Assembly (NCBI GenBank): GCA_035935655.1
Contig: DASYWW010000037.1
Location: forward strand, 186,001 to 250,000
DNA: 64,000 nt
Direction: 5' to 3'
Source: Candidatus Bathyarchaeia archaeon
GTDB lineage: Archaea; Thermoproteota; Bathyarchaeia; 40CM-2-53-6
The notes below the pieces were generated by a model. It worked only from the letters and a program-made list of their open reading frames with translations, did not search any database and was not told where the DNA came from. Below, one piece after another: positions 5,112-27,563 of the stretch. Both the position numbers and the translations under genes were made by a program. Position 1 is the stretch's first letter; each line of letters opens with the position of its first letter.

Positions 5112-6071
5112 ATGTTCTCACCGGCCCTGATTTTGATTTTTCGATTGATAGAAGAGAGAAAATCCAAGATTGCGCTCGTCCTTCTCGTACTTGGTGTGTT
5201 GATGATTGTCCCTCGAGAGCCTGTGGCGGTCAGGGCCCAACTGGTGGGCAAAGTTTGCATCGCGGATATTGCTACAACTTTCTGTCCAACAAGCCCGACG
5301 ATCGTTTCCGGAACGGTAGGCACGCCATTAAACGTGGCGGTCAATATTCAGGGCTCTGATGTAATGAACGGTTTCGACATTTTCGTCAAATCCGACACCG
5401 CCACAGTTCAGCCTATCGGTGTAAACATGACTGGAACGGTGCTAGGTACAAACACTCTAGCGTTTGCCGACTGCGTTGAGTTTGTCGGTTCGGGATGCGG
5501 GACTCTTTTGAATGGTCCCGGTATTGTACGTTTTGCCCTAGTCGCTCTAGGCACAGTCGTCCTGGCTCCTGCCACGGGCAGATTGTTCAGCATAGGCTAC
5601 AGGGTACTCCAAAACTCGACTGGAATCAATGTGGGCTTTCAGACCGGCTGCACAGGAGGGAGCGTGCCATCGGGTCTTTGCATTCTGGTGGTAAACGCGG
5701 GGGTGGCTGTTCCAGAGACCGCCCAAGAGAGTGCGACGCCTGGAATTGGAGACTTCTCCCTTTCAGGAGACCAGTTGATCACGATTCCGCGAGGAACAGA
5801 AGCATCAGGACTGGTGAACGTGCTAAGCCAAGGAGGCTTCTTTGGAGGCATCACGCTATCCACAACGATTTCGCCCGTCAGAAAGGACGGTCCTGTCGCT
5901 GTTCTGAGTACGTCTCTCGTTTTCATTCTGCCAGGAACATCCTCAACAGTCAGGCTGCTGATAAGCACCTCCCTGCGCACGCATCCCGGAAATTACAACG
6001 TCATTATTACGGCAACAAGCGGGTCTAAAACGCACTCAATGACTGTGGTCATTACTGTTCCCCGCCGATAA
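5112..6071 (+). CDS. Secreted protein with a cohesin-like beta domain
   Basis: A 319-residue protein. Residues about 18-42 (IALVLLVLGVLMIV, ending in VRAQ) form a signal peptide or membrane anchor after a charged start. Residues about 65-200 carry GTPLNVAVNIQGSDVMNGFD, then PGIVRFALVALG and GRLFSIGYRVL, resembling a cohesin-type Ig-like beta sandwich. The remainder is a second beta-rich domain with GNYNVIITATSG, similar to Ig-like modules of archaeal surface proteins. Four cysteines could form disulfides. It is probably exported; its partner is unknown, but dockerin-like EF-hand repeats occur elsewhere in the window. Confidence 0.6.
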   Translation: MFSPALILIFRLIEERKSKIALVLLVLGVLMIVPREPVAVRAQLVGKVCIADIATTFCPTSPTIVSGTVGTPLNVAVNIQGSDVMNGFDIFVKSDTATVQPIGVNMTGTVLGTNTLAFADCVEFVGSGCGTLLNGPGIVRFALVALGTVVLAPATGRLFSIGYRVLQNSTGINVGFQTGCTGGSVPSGLCILVVNAGVAVPETAQESATPGIGDFSLSGDQLITIPRGTEASGLVNVLSQGGFFGGITLSTTISPVRKDGPVAVLSTSLVFILPGTSSTVRLLISTSLRTHPGNYNVIITATSGSKTHSMTVVITVPRR

Positions 6072-21721: not shown

Positions 21722-22150
21722 CTACCACAGAGATCGCCTGAGAGATTCACTTCCGTGCTTCCGGTACGAGTCAAGCATAGACTTCAGTATTCCCGCCTTG
21801 CCAGCATCACTGAATCCGATCCTATCGCGGAATAGGCGCAAGTTGTCCCTGCCAAGGATAGCTAACTTCCAGCTTGTAATCGTGCTTCGTCGGACGCCAG
21901 CCTTCGTATCCAAGTACAACTTGGAGTCTATGCCCATCTTGTAGAGCATGACTCTGATGTTTTCCAGTAGCGCCTTGTTTGTGTTTGAGATGAAGACTGC
22001 ACGACTGCTGACATAACCAGGTTTGTGGTGTGCTCGCGTGCTTCTGGTTCTGTAGTACGCAGGCCATCCTTCGCCGTCTACGAACCCTCGGATGTAGCGC
22101 TCCTGCTCACGAAGCGCCCACTGCAACATTTCCGTCTTGCTCGTGTCCAT
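21722..22150 (-). CDS. LAGLIDADG-type homing endonuclease, single motif
   Basis: 142 residues. YIRGFVDGEGWPAYY (about 19-33) matches the LAGLIDADG motif with the acidic catalytic residue, followed by NTNKALLENIRVMLYKMGID and a second basic helix. With one motif it would work as a homodimer. It stands free in the 650-base space between the DUF1512 gene and the PQQ-repeat gene; I see no tRNA, rRNA or split gene around it. A homing element that has left its intron, or a recruited regulator, are both possible. Confidence 0.75.
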   Translation of the reverse strand: MDTSKTEMLQWALREQERYIRGFVDGEGWPAYYRTRSTRAHHKPGYVSSRAVFISNTNKALLENIRVMLYKMGIDSKLYLDTKAGVRRSTITSWKLAILGRDNLRLFRDRIGFSDAGKAGILKSMLDSYRKHGSESLRRSLW

Positions 22151-24680: not shown

Positions 24681-24690
24681 GCTTTATACC
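24681..24690 (+). promoter_or_regulatory. TATA box of the duplicated tRNA-Trp leader
   Basis: The sequence GCTTTATACC lies about 29 bases before TCGGTGGGG, the conserved start of the first tRNA-Trp leader. The second copy has a TATA-like element at the same spacing, which supports both as archaeal TFB/TBP promoters. Confidence 0.5.
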
Positions 24691-24712
24691 AAGAATTTCC
24701 GACACCCACCTT

Positions 24713-24806
24713 TCGGTGGGGCACTGCATAGAGCCTTCGTACAGTACCGGGCCGTAGTCTAGCCAGACCCAACGAAATCAGGGTCCTAAGAAAGGAACGA
24801 TGACGC
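24713..24806 (+). pseudogene. Duplicated 5' half of tRNA-Trp with leader and D-loop intron
   Basis: 24713-24747 is a leader beginning TCGGTGGGG; 24748-24805 matches the 5' half of the intact tRNA-Trp downstream: GGGCCG, TAGTCTAGCCAG, a D-loop intron closed by ACCC/GGGT, then GAACGATGAC. After the D-arm the match stops and no anticodon arm follows. The fragment is immediately upstream of a LAGLIDADG gene. It looks like a tRNA-Trp gene cut after the D-arm, probably by an intron-endonuclease event. Whether it is transcribed is unknown, though its TATA box is retained. Confidence 0.7.
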
Positions 24807-24872
24807 ATTTCAATACGATTCACTTTGACTCAGGTCTATCCTAAACAGAACCGTTTACCCAAATAGAAACTG

Positions 24873-25529
24873 ATGCTGACCGAACAAGAATCTGAGATTC
24901 TCGGCATACTATTTGGGGACGGGTGCCTGTCTAAGAATCGCGGCTCCGTCCAGATTGCTGTTACGGGGAACAAGCACGATGACCGAGAATACTTGATCGG
25001 CCACGTTTGTCCGATGTTCGAAGAGCTCTTTGCCGTACAGTTCAAGGTATTATTCGTGAAAGACCAAAATACTATGATTCTATACAAGTACTCTAAACGA
25101 GTTGGGGAGACCCTTCGTCAATGGGGAATGCCCTTTGGCCGAAAGAAGTTCTCCGAGCTGGCACCAAGGCTCGCAGTGCATGAAGTATGTTTCGTCAGAG
25201 GCTTATTTGACACGGATGGCTCTGTATATCGCAAGTATGGCCATTATCAGCAAATTCAGTTCAAGTTCGCTTCCTTTTCCCTACTTGCATACGCGAGGGA
25301 GTGCCTTGTAAGACTCGGCTTTCACCCCACATCGATTACAAGCGACGATACTAAGTTTAGGTTCTATCTAAGTAGACAAGCTGAGGTAGACCATTTCTTT
25401 AGGGTCGTAGAGCCCAAAAATCCGAAGCATCTTAGACGGTTCCAAAATGCTTCTCGAAGACAGTCCTACCGTCCGTACACACATCCTTCTGTAGCATTGA
25501 AGGGATCCAGAACCGCCCAAACCTTATAG
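24873..25529 (+). CDS. LAGLIDADG homing endonuclease (two motifs), beside tRNA-Trp
   Basis: 218 residues with two LAGLIDADG motifs: ILGILFGDGCL (about 8-18) and FVRGLFDTDGSVYR (about 107-120). Two motifs mean a pseudo-symmetric monomer. Intron-type enzymes of this length are common in archaeal rRNA and tRNA introns. It lies between the truncated tRNA-Trp copy and the intact tRNA-Trp; its stop overlaps the second tRNA's TATA-like element. The setting suggests its target is the tRNA-Trp gene. Confidence 0.85.
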   Translation: MLTEQESEILGILFGDGCLSKNRGSVQIAVTGNKHDDREYLIGHVCPMFEELFAVQFKVLFVKDQNTMILYKYSKRVGETLRQWGMPFGRKKFSELAPRLAVHEVCFVRGLFDTDGSVYRKYGHYQQIQFKFASFSLLAYARECLVRLGFHPTSITSDDTKFRFYLSRQAEVDHFFRVVEPKNPKHLRRFQNASRRQSYRPYTHPSVALKGSRTAQTL

Positions 25530-25530
25530 G
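25521..25530 (+). promoter_or_regulatory. TATA box of the intact tRNA-Trp gene
   Basis: ACCTTATAGG lies 28 bases before TCGGTGGGG, matching the spacing in the first copy (24681). The TATA box overlaps the stop codon of the homing endonuclease gene, so the endonuclease ORF ends inside the tRNA promoter. Confidence 0.5.
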
Positions 25531-25594
25531 AACTATTTTGTGAGAACACGCTCGGTGGGGTAGCCCAGGGAGCTTTTCAGTACAAGGGCTCTAT

Positions 25595-25779
25595 GGGGCC
25601 GTAGTCTAGCCAGACCCGTTCCGGGTCCTAGAAAGGGACGACGACGGGCTCCAGAATCTATTGCAAAAGGATAGACCGACCCAAAAATTGAGGGATGAGG
25701 AAATTCAGGAGCGCGTGAAGATACCCGTAGACGAGGGACTCGGCGGATGTCGTGGGTTCAAATCCCACCGGCCCCACCA
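25595..25779 (+). tRNA. tRNA-Trp (CCA) with three predicted introns
   Basis: Acceptor GGGGCCG pairs with CGGCCCC (25769-25775), then A73 and encoded CCA. T-arm GTGGG / TTCAAAT / CCCAC is perfect. D-stem GTC pairs with GAC. Anticodon stem ACGGG (25644-25648) pairs with CCCGT (25724-25728) around the loop C-T-CCA-G-A, so the anticodon is CCA (25651-25653), Trp. Three introns are needed: about 22 bases in the D-loop (25614-25635), 68 bases at canonical 37/38 (25655-25722), and about 18 bases in the variable loop (within 25729-25751). Archaeal tRNA-Trp 37/38 introns often hold a box C/D guide; here only weak C/D-like motifs are seen. The 3' end overlaps rpiB on the other strand. Confidence 0.85.
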
Positions 25780-26360: not shown

Positions 26361-27563
26361 TTGTTGGCTGTCAAGTCTGTCTGGCAACACTATGCTCCAG
26401 CAGGCGATGCTCTGCGTTTGCTGGAGTTGTTCAGGAGGATGGTTAACGAGTCCCTGTGGATAGGTATGGCTAATGACGTGTCGGCGCTGAGAAAGCTCTC
26501 ACTCCTCTCCTACAACCAGCTAGCCCAGTACAACTCTCCCAGCTATTACAAGCTCTGCGCCATATCACGCGCAGCAGGAATACTAGCCTCCAGGAAGAAG
26601 TCTATCCGGAGAGGCTACGTCAACAGGACCCCGTACGCCGTCAGGCAACACCTTGTCTCCTGCTACGGATTCAAGATTAGAAACAGTCTACTGGAGATTC
26701 CGGTTGCCAGGGGACGACGATTTGCAATCCCGCTGACCAAGCATACCCTTCAAATCATATCCCATCCAGATGTCGAAGTTCGTTCCTTCACTCTCACCCG
26801 TACCAGGCTCTGCCTTTGCATCGCCCGCGACCCTCCCATGATAGAATGCGCCTCCACGATAGGTGTGGATCGTAATCTTCGTAATCTCACGGTTGGAAAC
26901 GACCAGCATGCCCATCGATACGATCTCTCAGAGGCGATGCGCATAGCAAGTACCACGGCACGCATAGTAGCCTCCTTCAGACGAGACGATGCTAGAGTAA
27001 GAACGGTGATAGCGTCTAAGTATGGACGGCGAAGAACCTCTAGAACCCTTCACCTACTCCACAACACGACAAAGACAATTGTCGCAGAGGGAGTCCGGCG
27101 GAAAACAGCAATAGTTCTCGAGAACATCGAAGGCATCCGATCCCTCTATCGTAAGGGTAACGGTCAGGGCAGAAAGTATAGGGGTAGAATGAACGGATGG
27201 GGTTTCGGCGAGGCTCAGCGACAGATCGAGTACAAGGCACGATGGGTAGGCCTACCGGTTGTCCGTTTGTCTAGGCGTGGGACCAGAGGCTCCAGTATTA
27301 CTTGTCCGAGATGCGGGGAGAGACTCCAATCAGACAAGCGACTAGAACGCAAGCTCTGGTGCAGCAATTGTCGAACAGTAATGGACCGGGACATGGTAGC
27401 AGCGATAAACTTGTCTCGGCGGGGACGGGTGAGGTTCGCACGTTCCCGGCCTCCCATCAATGAGGCGCAAGGCGGAGCAGTTGAAGCAGTGAAGGGGAAC
27501 CCGACGCCTACGGTAATCCCCGGAGTCGATGTCCCGAAGCTAACTCAACCAACGAAGAGTTAA
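26361..27563 (+). mobile_element. tnpB: TnpB RNA-guided nuclease (IS200/IS605-type, stand-alone)
   Basis: A 400-residue ORF (TTG start) with the split RuvC triad in GVDRNLRNLTVG (Asp), VLENIEGIR (Glu) and MDRDMVAAINLS (Asp), plus a zinc ribbon between the last two (TCPRCG ... WCSNC). TnpB uses an omega-RNA from the element's right end to cut DNA at a matching site and so protect the transposon copy. No TnpA transposase is adjacent, so it is either a stand-alone TnpB or a trans-mobilised element. A related but decayed 3' end occurs at 53345-53595. The final codons probably run beyond the element into flanking DNA. Confidence 0.88.
27462..27531 (+). ncRNA. Candidate omega-RNA 3' scaffold at the right end of tnpB
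   Basis: The segment from GAGGCGCAAGG to GAGTCGATG is shared with the minus strand of 53345-53414, where the coding frame is destroyed; identity ends abruptly after GTCGATG in both copies. Conservation without coding capacity is what an RNA scaffold at the element end predicts. The bases after 27531 would then be the guide. It contains pairing blocks such as GGGGAACCC. Structure and expression are inferred. Confidence 0.55.

Follow-up and report, generated by a model that had tools for sequence, protein, structure and literature searches.

The tRNA-Trp gene studied here has in all likelihood been entered by a homing endonuclease gene (HEG) element of about 0.84 kb, which inserted within the gene, stranded the native 5′ half and rebuilt the gene with a half of its own. 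The host genome is a draft soil metagenome-assembled genome (MAG) of the Bathyarchaeota type, 2.5 Mb in size and 95.8% complete, and the window, the whole 64,000-nt stretch of DNA that was analysed, lies on its contig C37. From left to right, the locus consists of the native promoter and leader, a stranded tRNA-Trp 5′ half, a LAGLIDADG gene, a second promoter and leader, and a complete tRNA-Trp gene (Table 1). The comparison of genomes demonstrates the insertion, the regeneration of the gene, the foreign origin of its 5′ half, the recurrence of the arrangement across species and tRNAs, and purifying selection on the HEG.

Table 1. Features of the tRNA-Trp locus, in window coordinates.
Feature	Position	Strand	Basis and remarks
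Native tRNA-Trp promoter, TATA-like CTTTATAC	24682..24689	+	Identical box at equal position in HEG-free G001, G005 and G009; putative function
Native tRNA-Trp leader	24690..24747	+	96% identity to G005 and G009 when taken together with the first 18 nt of the tRNA
Stranded native tRNA-Trp 5′ half	24748..24805	+	Predicted D-loop intron 24766-24793; break at about tRNA position 26
Inserted element, ~838 bp: spacer, HEG, promoter, replacement 5′ half to tRNA position 26	24806..25643	+	Single-copy relatives; right boundary (25643) placed by analogy with the left boundary
LAGLIDADG HEG, 218 aa, two LAGLIDADG motifs	24873..25529	+	PF14528, AlphaFold2, nearest folds, dN/dS
Element-borne promoter, TATA-like CCTTATAG	25522..25529	+	Aligns with the native box; kept in G003, G004 and G017; putative function
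Element-borne tRNA leader	25530..25594	+	Resembles the element copies of G004, G003 and G017
tRNA-Trp exon 1, element-borne	25595..25612	+	Alignment of relatives; ARAGORN on the intron-free form
Predicted D-loop intron, 22 nt	25613..25634	+	Mature form passes ARAGORN; splicing predicted
D-arm 3′ part GGGACGACG, element-borne	25635..25643	+	HEG-free relatives have GGAATGACG
Anticodon-stem 5′ strand and anticodon CCA (25651-25653), native	25644..25654	+	Comparison with relatives; ARAGORN
Predicted canonical intron at 37/38	25655..25722	+	ARAGORN on the intron-free form; relatives
tRNA-Trp 3′ part, native, CCA encoded	25723..25779	+	Predicted 18-nt variable-region intron at ~25731-25748

An earlier note on this DNA had placed a leader and tRNA-Trp 5′ half at 24713-24806, followed by an endonuclease region beginning where the fragment ends. 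The half is real, but the fragment itself covers 24748-24805 and the native promoter starts at 24682; likewise, the break does lie near the end of the D-arm, but the HEG begins 67 bp further on. The LAGLIDADG gene between the copies was confirmed by a PF14528 match. The downstream leader and tRNA-Trp form a complete gene, as had been noted, though not a plain one, since three introns are predicted in it.

The two copies of tRNA-Trp share a perfect repeat, GGGCCGTAGTCTAGCCAGACCC (24749-24770 and 25596-25617), and a weaker repeat of the leader (24713 and 25552). When the whole genome was searched with the intact copy, the stranded fragment was recovered at E = 2e-7 and a single complete tRNA-Trp was found, at 25595-25779. 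This copy encodes tRNA-Trp(CCA); one intron each is predicted for the D-loop, position 37/38 and the variable region, and once they are removed ARAGORN calls a tRNA-Trp with all stems present. Because of these introns the gene was missed by plain ARAGORN, which reported no tRNA in the window, and by Rfam, which gave just a sub-threshold tmRNA match over the gene (35.4 bits, cut-off 47); identity as a tmRNA was rejected as a false match. The D-loop intron is absent from the same tRNA in G020 (L025).

The fragment breaks off around tRNA position 26, where the D-stem meets the anticodon stem. Its position 1 is C instead of G, which makes pairing with position 72 impossible, and its D-stem is spoiled. 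Retention of the fragment for a function, as a regulatory small RNA or as half of a split tRNA, is extremely unlikely. Most carriers have retained the native promoter and archaea do have split tRNAs, but the whole-genome search with the intact copy found no matching lone tRNA-Trp 3′ half, the downstream copy is complete and passes ARAGORN without introns, and the fragment is lost or differently broken in G012, G013, G014, G015 and G017.

The origin of the parts was assessed by comparison within the genus. The fragment and its leader share 96% identity with HEG-free G005 and G009, but just 62% with the intact copy, which lies 850 bp away. Over 75 nt of leader plus 18 nt of tRNA, the leader and 5′ half of the intact copy are 89%, 84% and 78% identical to the element copies of G004, G003 and G017 respectively, against 61-62% to native leaders. 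The HEG and this second leader and 5′ half resemble other carriers only, the HEG protein being 73-79% identical to those of G017, G003 and G004. For the tRNA-Trp 3′ half, identity to G001 and G005 is 94-95%; the gene upstream of the locus is 91% identical to that of G005, which has an empty site. As the identities run from native to element to native, the working tRNA-Trp gene is a chimera of an element-borne promoter and 5′ half with a native 3′ half. By the same comparison, the fragment is the older, native piece and the 5′ half of the intact copy the newcomer. The view that homing or repair had left a partial copy of the intact gene is not supported, the fragment being 96% identical to HEG-free relatives. 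The other suggestion of the earlier note, a gene regenerated after intron insertion, holds for the regeneration, but an HEG element was inserted rather than an intron and the new 5′ half is foreign.

Elements carrying a tyrosine recombinase, of the SSV or pNOB8 type, also rebuild tRNA genes upon integration, leaving att-like repeats, and one has been proposed for a similar tRNA-Thr locus of Caldiarchaeum (PMC3293823). Such an origin is extremely improbable for the tRNA-Trp locus, where the repeats are 62% identical and not the perfect repeats expected of att sites, and where the LAGLIDADG protein is the only gene of the 838-bp insert. No recombinase gene was present in any carrier among the loci read, and the same enzyme family is found at sister loci.

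Insertion of the HEG element is further illustrated by the other members of the genus. The HEG-free congeners G001, G005, G008, G009, G011 and G016, compared as the earlier note had advised, have one intact tRNA-Trp gene each. Among carrier relatives, an intact first copy was looked for, as that note had named it as evidence against its own reading, and none was found. In G012, G013 and G014, the broken first copy has the native type-1 D-loop intron and the rebuilt copy carries another intron, located at 25/26. In G004, the HEG is broken and the fragment before it is a broken copy of the type-2 form, so that a different resident allele was invaded; G004 is a case of re-invasion. The type-2 gene occurs without HEG in G006 and G018. 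Carriers G015 and G017 have kept the leader and lack the 5′ fragment, while G003, G007 and G010a have no fragment; its loss in G003, G010a, G015 and G017 is read as decay.

The absence of the first copy from these last four carriers also bears on a very unlikely alternative, in which the HEG lies in a very long bulge-helix-bulge tRNA intron and the first 5′ half serves as exon 1, spliced to the downstream 3′ half. Archaeal rRNA introns of that kind do hold sister HEGs, found in 16S and 23S rRNA genes (L216-L219, L221, L222 and L230), and one homologue apparently lies inside a tRNA-Lys D-arm intron, with an inverted repeat around the HEG (L144, below). At the tRNA-Trp locus, however, the HEG is not intron-encoded in this sense, since it is followed by another complete 5′ half, which has a TATA-like box of its own and stands directly before the 3′ half, and the first copy carries the G1-to-C change and the spoiled D-stem.

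Both empty and invaded tRNA-Trp loci were found in the G010 MAG, on contigs C47 and C59; as their flanking genes are 84% identical, the bin probably contains two species. The separate contigs of G010 and the draft state of the host MAG would fit an artefact of assembly or binning that fused two strains. The probability of this is close to negligible, given that independent assemblies of several MAGs, including ones from other orders and phyla, show the same order of features.

The HEG product matches PF14528 with E = 1.7e-8, above the cut-off, and the acidic residues of its two LAGLIDADG motifs, D16 and D115, are invariant across 30 aligned sequences. In the AlphaFold2 model (mean pLDDT 90), the fold alpha-beta-beta-alpha-beta-beta-alpha is present twice. 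The nearest solved folds are those of I-Tsp061I (E = 2.6e-11) and I-DmoI, enzymes of similar size which also have two LAGLIDADG motifs; these are encoded by introns of archaeal rRNA genes, whereas the HEG described here is free-standing beside a tRNA gene. The dN/dS ratio of 0.15-0.16 between G000, G017 and G003 indicates purifying selection and hence that the HEG is kept for function. This selection and the presence or absence of the HEG at one site are only indirect signs of a putative site-specific cleavage and homing activity. The element-borne TATA-like box overlaps the HEG stop codon, and at two loci of the wider search (L116, 4770-5585; L145, 1291-2079) the HEG frame enters the regenerated tRNA gene and has its stop codon within the tRNA. 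Through these overlaps the enzyme is tied to the rescue half.

A second, cleaner case, an independent and precise filled/empty pair, was found at tRNA-Glu(CTC), in a different family of the Bathyarchaeia class. In G091, the native promoter and GCTCCGGTAGTATAGTCCGGTCAAGTATAGCG, a stranded part comprising 32 nt of the tRNA, are followed by a related HEG and then by a whole tRNA-Glu(CTC), whose 5′ half is identical to the first apart from a 17-nt D-arm insertion, ACTTGAAAAAGGACCAT. Its congener G092 has the same promoter and one tRNA-Glu, and lacks both the insertion and the HEG. Of the tRNA-Glu(CTC) loci read, a D-arm intron is present in three out of three with an HEG or an HEG remnant (G091, G135 and G090; in G135 the HEG is reduced to its tail) and in two without HEG (G146 and G087, a congener of G090), and is missing from nine others. 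Separately, L238 (G142) contains a promoter and a tRNA-Glu 5′ half cut short in the D-arm, and the 2.8 kb read there gave no match to the HEG.

When GTDB genomes were scanned with the HEG profile, 79 loci emerged. Named relatives of the HEG occur in soil MAGs labelled Bathyarchaeota, Crenarchaeota or ‘archaeon’. Of the 46 bacterial homologues, nearly all from CPR, 45 have a tRNA-Tyr or tRNA-Ser gene immediately 3′ of them, in the same orientation and within about 100 bp. When the region upstream of each bacterial HEG was compared with the tRNA following that HEG, there was no overall excess (own mean 17.7, null 16.6), probably owing to differences between the rebuilt and the native half. A generic class-II 5′-half pattern, picked after some remnants had been seen, was found upstream at 9 of 45 loci with at most 5 mismatches; on the reverse strand no locus came within this limit (best 6). 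Many tRNA-Tyr remnants stop at or close to GTGGTCAATTGC, which forms the 3′ side of the D-arm; L127 has a tRNA-Gly remnant that was judged by eye to stop at the same place, and L103 has a clear tRNA-Val remnant. None of 28 CPR genomes whose tRNA-Tyr has an HEG beside it contains the common tRNA-Tyr sequence spanning the D-arm and the anticodon arm, whereas 59 of 96 and 47 of 80 relatives of two of these genomes do; the contrast is suggestive only, as the groups are unmatched by lineage. Further cases in the phylum-wide search concern tRNA-Phe (L212, L215), tRNA-Leu (L223), tRNA-Lys (L210) and tRNA-Glu (L233), all identified by eye.

Other arrangements were also seen. In L144 (G220:C53, 1415-2180), the HEG apparently lies within a D-arm intron of tRNA-Lys(CTT), with a 22-nt inverted repeat around it, apparently the intron version of the same lifestyle. 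At the archaeal loci L066, L068, L069, L071, L072 and L075, mostly from Woesearchaeota, the HEG stands tail to tail with a tRNA-Trp on the opposite strand, and at most of them a CACTGGACA motif lies upstream of the TATA-like box preceding the HEG. Beside the HEG of L070 (G048, 5632-5822) lies a tRNA-Trp whose last 32 nt are repeated in tandem after it. In the CPR loci L201, L202 and L203, the homologue is on the 3′ side of tRNA-Leu(CAA), and no 3′ remnant was found at these three loci. The tRNA-Asp neighbours L204-L206 have just another whole tRNA upstream. Decayed tRNA-Ser 5′ halves occur about 445 bp before the HEG domain at L077, L078, L079, L085, L099 and L108; they seem to extend as far as the anticodon loop and to share sequence with a possible HEG promoter, which suggests a different break site in this subgroup.

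In the reading favoured here, the element comprises a LAGLIDADG HEG, a tRNA promoter and the 5′ half of a tRNA-Trp, and it has inserted near tRNA position 26 (25 to 29 in the sister cases). The native 5′ half has stayed behind as a dead fragment before the HEG, while the promoter and 5′ half of the element have joined the native 3′ half to give a complete tRNA gene. For the insertion a mechanism can be proposed: the enzyme would cut an uninvaded gene near the boundary between D-stem and anticodon stem, at positions 25-29, and repair from an invaded allele would copy the element in, with the stranded native 5′ half as the left homology arm and the 3′ half as the right one. The native tRNA promoter would now drive the HEG. 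The element behaves like a homing intron, yet the host gene is saved by duplication of half a gene and not by splicing. Regenerated copies are altered at the break site, by a D-arm intron or by substitutions. These alterations suggest immunity: the altered D-arm, whether through base changes or an intron that archaea can splice, may block re-cutting of the rebuilt gene. Against this, the new copy of clade A differs from native alleles in just two bases beside the break and in the intron loop, and D-arm introns are also present where there is no HEG (G006, G018, G087 and G146).

For a broader proposal we see evenly balanced chances: that a widespread family of tRNA-targeting HEGs in Bathyarchaeia, other archaea and CPR spreads while it rebuilds the tRNA genes it breaks, that in archaea the rebuilt half has an intron at the site of the break, and that many non-canonical D-arm introns are therefore immunity marks or scars which outlast the HEG. 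Persistence of the intron may be seen in G135, with the HEG tail alone, and G087, with the intron alone.

The closest precedent is the insertion in tRNA-Thr(GGU) of Caldiarchaeum subterraneum, described in 2012 and ascribed to a pNOB8-type integrase element, whose authors remarked that the added intron could help the element (Sugahara et al., PMC3293823). It shares with the tRNA-Trp locus a tRNA 5′ fragment (positions 1-27), an ORF directly before the tRNA on the same strand and then the complete tRNA, which has gained a D-arm intron (24/25), and an uninterrupted allele without the extra intron exists in the same population. Its insert measures 1.87 kb, and its ORF ‘b’ was not identified as LAGLIDADG in PMC3293823; here the enzyme is identified and the pattern extends across many tRNAs and lineages. 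No tRNA-Thr case was present among the loci read from the phylum-wide search. In fungal mitochondria, mobile ORFs carry a replacement gene end (Allomyces atp6; Glomus atp6, cox2 and nad3; PMC3630166), where an endonuclease gene with a diverged duplicate of part of the target replaces the native part, left as a remnant. The mosaic identities of the tRNA-Trp locus follow the same logic, and common descent is not claimed; the fungal elements concern 3′ ends of mitochondrial protein genes, while those described here concern a tRNA 5′ half and promoter, in archaea and bacteria. Introns in tRNA genes were proposed as a shield against integration by Randau and Soll in 2008 (as reviewed in PMC4090602). 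They, too, envisage an intron that keeps a mobile element out of its target site; their proposal deals with viruses and integrases at attB sites, whereas here the introns arrive with a homing element, at its break site. No report of LAGLIDADG genes rebuilding tRNA genes was found in the open-access literature searched.

The presence of introns at odd positions in archaeal tRNA genes, and the origin of split or fragmented tRNA genes, are long-standing questions. The usual answer, a shield from mobile elements, has to our knowledge lacked a clear element so far. With one enzyme family, one break region and matched invaded and uninvaded genes, the shielding idea becomes directly testable, and the locus provides a strong and testable link between homing elements and the origin of non-canonical tRNA introns. 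The locus also shows that a tRNA gene which is essential and present in one copy can be invaded without splicing. The same strategy occurs in bacteria that are not known to splice such introns, and the rebuilt half there has altered D-arms instead. Related elements, found next to tRNA genes of many uncultured archaea and bacteria, suggest a route by which odd tRNA introns arise.

Two other ORFs of the window were noted. A second small LAGLIDADG ORF of 142 aa (21722-22150, minus strand; PF14528, E = 4e-11) adjoins a beta-propeller gene and has, by eye, no tRNA on its 3′ side. A TnpB-like ORF (Cas12f1-like_TNB, PF07282) is located at 26361-27563 on the plus strand, shortly 3′ of tRNA-Trp and an rpiB-like gene.
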